64,000 nucleotides of DNA from Acidobacteriota bacterium (GTDB taxonomy: Bacteria; Acidobacteriota; Terriglobia; Terriglobales; Acidobacteriaceae): positions 68,070 to 132,069 of the forward strand of contig JAFDVW010000017.1 in assembly GCA_018268755.1 (NCBI GenBank), given 5' to 3'. The notes beneath the pieces were generated by a model that saw only the letters and a list, made by a program, of their open reading frames with translations, was not told where the DNA came from and made no database searches. Both the position numbers and the translations under genes were made by a program. Of this stretch, positions 51,319 to 53,443 are shown piece by piece; the stretch's first letter is position 1; each line of letters starts with the position of its first letter.

Positions 51319-51347
51319 TTGACGAACCCGGCCTTCCCGGATAGGAT
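51319..51347 (+). promoter_or_regulatory. Promoter of the SAM-riboswitch transcript
   Basis: TTGACG at 51319-51324 and TAGGAT at 51342-51347 with a 17-base spacer. The predicted start near 51354 precedes the aptamer by about 27 bases, which fits a riboswitch leader. Confidence 0.7.
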
Positions 51348-51380
51348 ATCTGCAAGTTTGCCCCTCATCGGGCAGACCTT

Positions 51381-51500
51381 GGATTTCATGCAGAGTGGCT
51401 GAGGGACGAGCCCAGTGACGCCACGGCAACCGGTTTAGGATCATCTATCCTTTTCGCAGGTGCCAACTCTCACCCGGAAGCACGGGGGAACATGAGATTC
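51381..51500 (+). ncRNA. SAM-I riboswitch aptamer
   Basis: P1 is a ten-base helix: GGATTTCATG (51381-51390) with CATGAGATTC (51491-51500), using two G-U pairs. P2 starts GTGGCTGAGGGACGAGCCC and closes with GCCAC. The conserved GGCAACC follows at 51425-51431. P3 is AGGATCATCTATCCT, then AGGTGCCAACTC matches the conserved AAGGTGCCAAnTC, and P4 is CCCGGAAGCACGGG. This combination is the SAM-I family. High SAM should switch off the downstream genes, placing them in methionine or sulfur metabolism. Confidence 0.9.
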
Positions 51501-51536
51501 GGGGTGCGCAGACTTTTCTGCATCTCGATTTCCTAT

Positions 51537-51573
51537 CCCCTCTTTTCCTCATCGGAAAAGGGGTTTCGTGTTT
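51537..51573 (+). terminator. Terminator-like hairpin of the riboswitch expression platform
   Basis: CCCC-TC-TTTTCC pairs with GGAAAAGGGG (two-base bulge), followed by TTTCGTGTTT. A second hairpin upstream (51494-51526: GAGAT and GCAGA paired with TCTGC and ATCTC) reuses the 3' strand of P1, so the two could be alternatives. I could not resolve the complete switching scheme by eye. Confidence 0.6.
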
Positions 51574-51632
51574 ATAGGGTGAGTTTTCCGCTCGTCTTCG
51601 GCGGCTCCGCAGGATAGAAGGAACGACCTGCA

Positions 51633-52880
51633 ATGGCTGCTTACGAACTGCGCTGTCGCGAATGCGGAAAAGCCTGGGGCAATCAGCCCCGCTCCATCTG
51701 CGACGATTGTTTTTCTCCTCTGGAAGTCAGCTACGATTACGACGCTCTGCGCTCGCGGGTAAGCCGCGAGAGCATCGCCCAGGGCCCTCCCAGCATGTGG
51801 CGTTACTCCGGCCTGCTGCCGTTGCCGGAGAACTATCAGCCCTCCCTCCCTACGGGTTTCACGCCGCTGCTGCGGGCCCCGCACCTGGCCAAACGGCTGG
51901 GCGCAAAGAACCTCTATGTGAAGAACGATGCCGTCTGCCTGCCCACGCTCAGCTTCAAGGACCGCGTGGTGGCGGTGGCGCTGGCCAACGCCAAAGCGTT
52001 CGGCTTTGAGGTCGTGTCGTGCTCTTCCACTGGAAATCTGGCGAACTCGGTCGCAGCGCAGGCGGCCCGCAACGGATTCCAGGCCTGGATCTTTGTTCCT
52101 TCCGACCTGGAGCCGGCCAAGATCCTGGGTACCCAGGTCTTCGGCGCCAAGCTGGTGCGTATTGCCGGCAACTACGACCAGGTCAACCGCCTGTGCTCGC
52201 AGATTGCTGATGAACGCCGCTGGGGCTTTGTGAACGTCAACCTCCGCCCCTATTACGCGGAAGGTTCGAAGACGGTGGGCTTTGAAATCGCCGAGCAGCT
52301 GGGCTGGCGTCTGCCCGATAACGTGGTGGTCCCCATGGCCGGAGGATCGCTCATCACCAAGATCAAGAAAGCTTTTGACGAGCTGGTCACGCTCGGCCTG
52401 GTGGAAGCCAAGCCGGTGCGTTTCTTCGGCGCGCAGGCCACCGGCTGCTCACCGATTTCGACTGCCGTCAAAGCCGGAAACCGGGACATCGAACCGCAGC
52501 GGCCTTCGACCATCGCGCGCTCGCTGGCCATCGGCAATCCGGCCGATGGGCACTACGCCATCAAGGCCATCACTCAGAGCGGGGGCTGGTCGGAGGATGT
52601 CTCCGACGCGGAAGTCGTCGAGAACATCCAGTTGCTGGCCGAGACCGAGGGCATCTTCACCGAGACTGCCGGCGGCGTGACCGTGGGTACCACTGCTAAG
52701 CTGGTCCGTCAGGGACGCATTCATCCCGATGAGATCACGGTGGCCTGCATCACCGGCAACGGCCTGAAGACGACCGACGTGCTCACCGGAGAGTATGAAG
52801 CCGAAACCCCCATCGCGCCCAAGCTCAGCGAGTTCGAAACGTACCTGAACAAGAGCCTGCCGGAGCCGGTCGCAGTCTAG
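51633..52880 (+). CDS. Threonine-synthase-like PLP enzyme, probably sulfur-assimilating (MetM-like)
   Basis: 415 residues. An N-terminal zinc ribbon (LRCRECGKAW and ICDDCFSPL) precedes the fold-type II core. The PLP lysine is in PTLSFKDRVVAVALA, the phosphate loop in SSTGNLANSVAAQAA and the substrate loop in FTETAGGVTVGTTAKL. By sequence alone it would be called ThrC. Its SAM-I riboswitch and the sulfur-carrier gene 150 bases downstream point to homocysteine formation from O-phosphohomoserine with a thiocarboxylated carrier, as described for MetM/MetO in Streptomyces (from memory). Threonine synthesis remains possible, or both. Confidence 0.85.
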   Translation: MAAYELRCRECGKAWGNQPRSICDDCFSPLEVSYDYDALRSRVSRESIAQGPPSMWRYSGLLPLPENYQPSLPTGFTPLLRAPHLAKRLGAKNLYVKNDAVCLPTLSFKDRVVAVALANAKAFGFEVVSCSSTGNLANSVAAQAARNGFQAWIFVPSDLEPAKILGTQVFGAKLVRIAGNYDQVNRLCSQIADERRWGFVNVNLRPYYAEGSKTVGFEIAEQLGWRLPDNVVVPMAGGSLITKIKKAFDELVTLGLVEAKPVRFFGAQATGCSPISTAVKAGNRDIEPQRPSTIARSLAIGNPADGHYAIKAITQSGGWSEDVSDAEVVENIQLLAETEGIFTETAGGVTVGTTAKLVRQGRIHPDEITVACITGNGLKTTDVLTGEYEAETPIAPKLSEFETYLNKSLPEPVAV

Positions 52881-52917
52881 GCCAACGGCCCAGACATGAT
52901 TGGGCCAAAGAGGATTT

Positions 52918-53000
52918 GTCATTCCGAGTCGCGTTTTTTGCGGCGAGGAATCCCTACTGCAGAAAGGGATTCTTCCGGCAAGCGTCTCTGAAATAACGAG
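52918..53000. repeat. GTCATTCCGAG-family repeat
   Basis: GTCATTCCGAGTCGCG, a T-run, and GCGGCGAGGAATCCCTAC, then AGGGATTCTTCCGG. It is an imperfect inverted repeat of the family widespread in bacterial intergenic DNA. It separates the synthase and the carrier genes, so it is likely within their common transcript. Confidence 0.65.
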
Positions 53001-53030
53001 AAGAAATCGAAGCAGCACGCATTCCGAATC

Positions 53031-53309
53031 ATGACCATTACAGTGCACATCCCCACCGCCCTTCGCCGTCACACGGAAGACACCGCTAAATTCGCCTGTG
53101 CGGCGGCCGACCTGAACGATCTTTTCTCGCAGCTCGACCAGAAGTTTCCCGCGCTCAAGCCGCACCTGCGCGATGAGCAGGGCCAGATTCGCCGTTTCCT
53201 CAACGTGTATGTGAATGAGGAAGACATCCGCTTTCTGGGCGGGCCGTCCTATGCCTTCCAGGATGGCGATGAAGTGCTGCTCGTACCCTCCATCGCCGGC
53301 GGCTGTTGA
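53031..53309 (+). CDS. MoaD/ThiS-family sulfur-carrier protein (MetO/CysO-like)
   Basis: 92 residues of ubiquitin-like fold: ITVHIPTALRRHTED, DLFSQLDQKFPALKPHL, FLNVYVNEEDIRFL and the closing FQDGDEVLLVPSIAGGC. These proteins end in Gly-Gly, which is adenylated and thiocarboxylated to donate sulfide. Here Cys follows Gly-Gly as the last residue, so it must be trimmed, or the Cys has a role. With the upstream synthase it forms a two-gene sulfur-transfer pair under SAM control. Confidence 0.88.
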   Translation: MTITVHIPTALRRHTEDTAKFACAAADLNDLFSQLDQKFPALKPHLRDEQGQIRRFLNVYVNEEDIRFLGGPSYAFQDGDEVLLVPSIAGGC

Positions 53310-53335
53310 CCCGCTGCCATCATGAGTTTTGTCAT

Positions 53336-53360
53336 CCCTCATGGCTTTCTGCCATGAGGG
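53336..53360 (+). terminator. Hairpin after the sulfur-carrier gene
   Basis: Perfect stem CCCTCATGGC / GCCATGAGGG with loop TTTCT, 26 bases after the stop. It is preceded by GTCAT, so it also resembles a GTCATTCCGA-family repeat. No real T-run follows. Confidence 0.5.
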
Positions 53361-53443
53361 ATCTGCTTTGATCTGGCATAAGTCCACATAGCGATTGACC
53401 CTATGCTCGAGTTTTCGTGGAGAGGCACGGCATCACATACTGC

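Follow-up and report, generated by a model that had tools for sequence, protein, structure and literature searches.

A SAM-I riboswitch unit in an acidobacterium with a predicted O-phosphohomoserine and carrier-thiocarboxylate route to homocysteine

Results

We analysed a 64 kb stretch of DNA from a soil acidobacterium (the window) together with the genome it comes from (G000), which is listed as 100% complete. The window holds a unit in which a SAM-I aptamer is followed by a ThrC-like enzyme and a ThiS/MoaD-like carrier, bounded by terminator-like hairpins. Judged from sequence, this unit very probably encodes a SAM-repressed MetM/MetO pathway of homocysteine synthesis, and a route from O-phosphohomoserine (OPH) and carrier-bound sulfur appears to replace the textbook route in this organism. 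The first-pass annotation had proposed this OPH/thiocarboxylate reading, and it is supported by the aptamer, the separate clade of the enzyme, a second thrC and the lack of metX and metA matches. To these features, all computed here, come the genes themselves, the thrB paired with the second thrC, a conserved neighbourhood and a capped carrier.

The aptamer (51383-51498, + strand) matched the Rfam family RF00162 over the full model (1-108) with 69.1 bits against a gathering threshold of 44.4 (E 4.6e-14), confirming the claim of a complete SAM-I aptamer, and was the sole Rfam RNA family detected across the 64 kb. Its P1 helix, announced as ten pairs, held at eight positions of the two aptamer ends and reached ten only by inclusion of one G-C and one G-T. 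A consensus scan predicted one sigma-70-like promoter (TTGACG-N17-TAGGAT, 51319-51347, +) where 0.1 were expected in shuffles, in line with the good promoter described earlier. Directly 3' of P1, a hairpin (51499-51528, +, -12.1 kcal/mol) has an ATCTC arm complementary to the P1 3' strand (GAGAT) and recurs in relatives L029 and L033; it could constitute the alternative structure in the SAM-free state. The aptamer ends 134 bases before metM, with terminator-like hairpins in the interval, one of which (51539-51563, +) comprises ten pairs followed by TTTCGTGTTT and resembles an intrinsic terminator. Such a hairpin was present in 45 of 73 relatives, mostly in the form CCTCTTTTCC...GGAAAAGAGG, against 3.9% of shuffled segments. 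An OFF switch acting by transcription termination would be the simplest reading.

An aptamer-core regular expression missed many aptamers (38/119), and relatives were scanned instead with a covariance model built from the aptamers retrieved in the analysis. The aptamer preceded metM on the same strand, in one copy each, at 74 of 80 related loci (named genome records). Four of the six misses (L031, L051, L086, L101) lie at a contig end with little or no upstream sequence, which leaves 74 of 76 testable relatives with the element. Standard pairs were kept at 97.1% in the aptamer helices with substitutions on both sides, i.e. with covariation. In a 40-genome sample of the family, SAM-I was found ahead of metM in all 15 genomes that had a SAM-I match; a genus-level riboswitch search returned the window's genome alone.

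The first gene behind the aptamer, metM (51633-52880, +), encodes a 415-residue ThrC-like fold-type II PLP enzyme of the PALP family (PF00291; TIGR00260 with 280 bits, cut-off 167), and the second, metO (53031-53309, +), a 92-residue sulfur carrier of the ThiS/MoaD family (PF02597, 45.7 bits, E 9.9e-12). These matches agree with the pair of proteins postulated behind the riboswitch, and TIGR00260 would indeed yield the label threonine synthase, as the first-pass annotation had warned. Downstream of metO, a terminator-like hairpin (53334-53362, +, 12 pairs, z -3.75) was more stable than all of 200 shuffles. The gap between the two genes (52881-53030) folds with -50.8 kcal/mol (z -2.9) and contains a strong inverted repeat, GAGGAATCCC...GGGATTCTTC (52945-52975, +). 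As a side observation, the segment 52918-52975, formed by GTCATTCCGAG...GAGGAATCCC and the inverted repeat, looks like a dispersed repeat, present in one copy in the window; the inverted repeat is possibly a mobile REP-like element.

A housekeeping thrC had not been expected under SAM control. The true ThrC is indeed encoded elsewhere, at C9, adjoining thrB (thrB L107:4937-5947, thrC L107:5898-7286). In a maximum-likelihood tree of 63 rows, S. albulus MetM not being among them, this thrB-linked ThrC joined the solved ThrCs of Aquifex, Thermus and Bacillus (99/96). The window enzyme fell outside these characterised housekeeping enzymes, in a MetM clade of 33 rows (support 100/100, stem 0.82) that includes a protein of the actinomycete Nonomuraea, whose locus carries SAM-I (68.7 bits), the MetM homologue (54%) and a carrier with a Gly-Gly end. 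At 17 alignment columns, the MetM and ThrC groups each had a residue of their own, fully or nearly fixed. In Thermus numbering, the changes from ThrC to MetM include T88 to L, S155 to N, N157 to R, R160 to Y, N188 to G, R242 to A and W249 to G; the window enzyme thus lacks the substrate-region residues common to the sampled ThrCs, six of the seven being replaced in 33 of 33 MetM rows and N188 by G in 32. We take these seven residues to line the substrate pocket of the Thermus enzyme. The metM product is predicted to be an OPH-dependent homocysteine synthase.

That metM encodes a second threonine synthase, controlled by SAM by chance, would find arguments in the TIGR00260 score above cut-off and in a cyanobacterial homologue (51.6% identity to S. 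albulus MetM), which is reported to act in vitro as a threonine synthase and a threonine deaminase, with no clear homocysteine formation. However, a thrB-linked ThrC is already present, the MetM clade is separate, the seven residues named above are replaced, and SAM-I control and the carrier would be left unexplained. We give this alternative the smallest chance of those considered.

Profile searches of the window genome returned no match for the homoserine acyltransferases MetX (TIGR01392) and MetA (PF04204), a check asked for in the first-pass annotation along with that for a second thrC, and ThrB is available as a source of OPH. Three strong Cys/Met-metabolism PLP enzymes are encoded, which would be without an acylhomoserine substrate since no acyltransferase was found. 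Plant cystathionine gamma-synthase uses OPH, and one of the three genes (L107:7369-8697) adjoins thrBC, divergent from thrC. Plant-like transsulfuration, by an OPH-using cystathionine gamma-synthase encoded there and a lyase, might therefore be the main route, MetM having a minor or special role. Yet the product of L107:7369-8697 matched the methionine gamma-lyase model best, next to that of cystathionine gamma-lyase; another of the PLP enzymes matches cystathionine gamma-lyase models and adjoins a CBS-like gene, consistent with reverse transsulfuration; and the SAM switch precedes metM, not the PLP genes. We regard transsulfuration as the main route as very unlikely.

The distribution of MetM and MetX was compared in 119 Acidobacteriota genomes. 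Identity of the best MetM match was bimodal, with 28 genomes at 48-100%, one truncated match and the rest at 40% or below. We called MetX strong at 200 bits or more, as no control genome reached the listed TIGR01392 cut-off of 500 bits; matches at 96-175 bits may include divergent MetX, and one such match, of 139 bits, is in G093, a MetM genome. Strong MetX was present in 31 genomes, only two of which also had MetM. In the window's family it occurred in none of nine MetM genomes vs three of three without MetM (Fisher p 0.0045), in MetM clade B in 0 of 19 vs 31 of 100 (p 0.003), and the exclusion over all MetM genomes had p 0.0068, values that overstate independence because the genomes are related. 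The three family genomes without MetM had MetX at 381-397 bits and lacked SAM-I. In the sample of the window's family, MetM and MetX substitute for one another. Separately, we observed SAM-I directly ahead of weak MetX-like proteins (162-163 bits or a fragment) in G001:C1:495600-496836, G014:C14:77309-78608 and G016:C294:6-758, possibly divergent homoserine acyltransferases.

MetO homologues adjoin metM in relatives. In the window, MetO ends in PSIAGGC, i.e. the C-terminal Gly-Gly of this adjacent carrier is capped by one Cys. In the window's order, PSIAGG was followed by two extra residues in 62 of 91 MetO proteins, by one in 7 and by none in 4, and the added residues vary widely in identity. 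MetO of six genomes from other families and of Nonomuraea is uncapped, with Gly-Gly terminal. The CysO of the window genome, with only 39% identity to MetO, is also capped (GGR) and adjoins a JAMM peptidase (L106:5440-5874). In capped carriers, Gly-Gly typically becomes accessible only through proteolysis; QbsD was shown to act in this way, and the evidence on the JAMM protein PtmS1 supports such a role (PMC6006322). Because MetO is capped in the window's order, proteolytic trimming is predicted before its activation, probably by a JAMM/Mec peptidase.

Where the sulfur for MetO may come from is suggested by linked genes. In G018 (L190:3256-7111) and G117 (L186), two genomes of one family, a single SAM-I is followed by genes for a ThiF-like E1, a cysteine desulfurase, MetM and a MetO with a Gly-Gly end. 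The parts of this relay are scattered in the window genome, as opposed to the one operon of G018 and G117. A second SAM-I aptamer (C36:313643-313757, 64.9 bits) precedes by 94 bases a NifS/IscS-like cysteine desulfurase (C36:313852-315036; L110:5853-7037); in the family sample, the other 14 genomes with SAM-I had a single aptamer each. The operon desulfurase and the C36 desulfurase share 39% over 215 residues, and therefore the same function was presumably recruited twice rather than inherited as one gene. An E1 encoded at C30 has 50% identity over 354 positions to the operon E1, vs 31% for the cysteine-pathway MoeZ, and is judged orthologous to the E1 of G018 and G117. The window genome also has a complete carrier-based cysteine set of CysM, JAMM/Mec, CysO and MoeZ (G000:C7:191185-194907; L106:4186-7908).

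Other relatives add to the picture. SAM-I and MetM stand with aspartate semialdehyde dehydrogenase (Asd) and aspartokinase (LysC) in G037 and G011. Neighbours of metM are a carrier and aspartokinase in G058, a carrier and MoeZ in G025, CysM-Mec-MoeZ in G009, thrB in G050, G115, G013 and G027, and ATP sulfurylase in G100. These are enzymes expected for a supply of OPH and activated sulfur.

Many sulfhydrylases accept sulfide, and MetM might make homocysteine from OPH and free sulfide, the carrier being dispensable or serving something else. A MetM subclade without adjacent carrier, subclade A, speaks for this, SAM-I being kept in some of its members. On the other hand, the carrier is adjacent at most loci of clade B, with 91 cases in the window's order and others in six genomes from outside its family; in G018 and G117, moreover, the SAM-I operon of MetM also contains the E1 and desulfurase. 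We find free sulfide improbable as the sulfur source, though the strongest of the competing explanations.

Discussion

In the proposed carrier-dependent pathway, ThrB, encoded elsewhere beside the true ThrC, would make OPH. Trimming, probably by a JAMM/Mec peptidase, would expose the Gly-Gly end of MetO, which a ThiF-like E1 would then adenylate; the sulfur of MetO would originate from a cysteine desulfurase, E1 and desulfurase being provisionally assigned. MetM, with OPH and MetO-thiocarboxylate as putative substrates, would form homocysteine by gamma-replacement, leading to methionine and SAM. High SAM, bound by the SAM-I aptamer, would end transcription at the hairpin ahead of metM. Whether a dedicated relay under SAM control leads from the desulfurase, a SAM-I riboswitch target in its own right, over a MetO-specific ThiF E1 and a capped MetO, uncapped by JAMM, to MetM is in our estimation an even question. 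If so, both the synthesis of homocysteine and its supply with cysteine sulfur would be governed by SAM, and capping of MetO would constitute an extra maturation step, of which we found no report for MetO.

Known systems share parts of this scheme. In Wolinella, HcyS and MetY form homocysteine from a carrier thiocarboxylate with a Cys/Met-family sulfhydrylase and an acylhomoserine substrate. PMC5764234 cites a protein thiocarboxylate pathway. Homocysteine from a carrier thiocarboxylate is also proposed for the window; unlike MetY, however, its enzyme is ThrC-like (PF00291), and no acyltransferase, neither MetX nor MetA, was found. Cysteine synthesis by Mec, CysO, CysM and MoeZ of the Mycobacterium type, operon class 4c (PMC1779556), resembles the window system in the carrier thiocarboxylate as sulfur donor, the ThiF-rhodanese E1 and the JAMM peptidase, but differs from MetM/MetO in its cysteine-side substrate and product and in having no riboswitch. 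The carriers of thioplatensimycin and thioquinolobactin have one or two residues after Gly-Gly (one Cys in PtmS3, Met-Val in PtmS2) and, like MetO, are capped, with a JAMM peptidase needed there; they belong to secondary metabolism, homocysteine synthesis not being reported for them (PMC6006322).

In Streptomyces albulus, the closest precedent, MetM was described as synthesising homocysteine, and a SAM riboswitch as lying ahead of its gene (Hasebe et al. 2024, doi 10.1128/aem.01247-24, as cited in PMC12172450). The Streptomyces MetM/MetO system that the first-pass annotation invoked is thus real, and MetM/MetO with a SAM riboswitch is known from Streptomyces since 2024. As far as that citation describes it, the S. 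albulus locus has the ThrC-like enzyme, adjacent carrier and upstream SAM riboswitch of the window; the Nonomuraea locus has the same layout, and its enzyme belongs to the clade of the window enzyme. Compared with S. albulus as described there, the window differs in its host, an acidobacterium, in its capped MetO and in having a cysteine desulfurase preceded by a second SAM-I, and the wider sample differs in the E1 and desulfurase within the SAM-I operon in some families and in the MetX swap within one family. Details that seem to be new are the acidobacterial distribution, the MetX swap, the sulfur relay and the capped carrier. If confirmed, the SAM-controlled desulfurase and E1, the MetX swap and the capped MetO would set the locus apart within the known kind.

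In automatic annotation metM would become a threonine synthase and metO 'MoaD-like', and the organism would be scored as being without the homocysteine step. Many soil Acidobacteriota, including isolates such as Terriglobus roseus, would thereby be misread as methionine auxotrophs or as carriers of two ThrCs. Owing to the swap with MetX inside one family, simple genetics would suffice to test what MetM does. A sulfur source, on which the metM-metO pair alone is silent, is suggested by the linked desulfurase and E1 and by the capped carrier.

Further observations concerned more distant PALP proteins. Subclade A of the MetM clade consists of ten rows (G046, G023, G027, G080, G106, G071, G039, G115, G050 and G013) at 48-53% identity; its loci have no adjacent carrier, SAM-I in three cases and thrB adjacent in four, and in G013 thrB, MetM and ThrC are consecutive. 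The function of this subclade may differ, or free sulfide may be used. The window genome encodes a further ThrC-like PALP protein (G000:C30:219894-221339; L109:6895-8340) of a third tree clade and doubtful annotation. Finally, a PALP match in two pieces at G000:C36:423398-424232, with open frames of 134 and 269 residues, is perhaps a broken gene or an assembly error.
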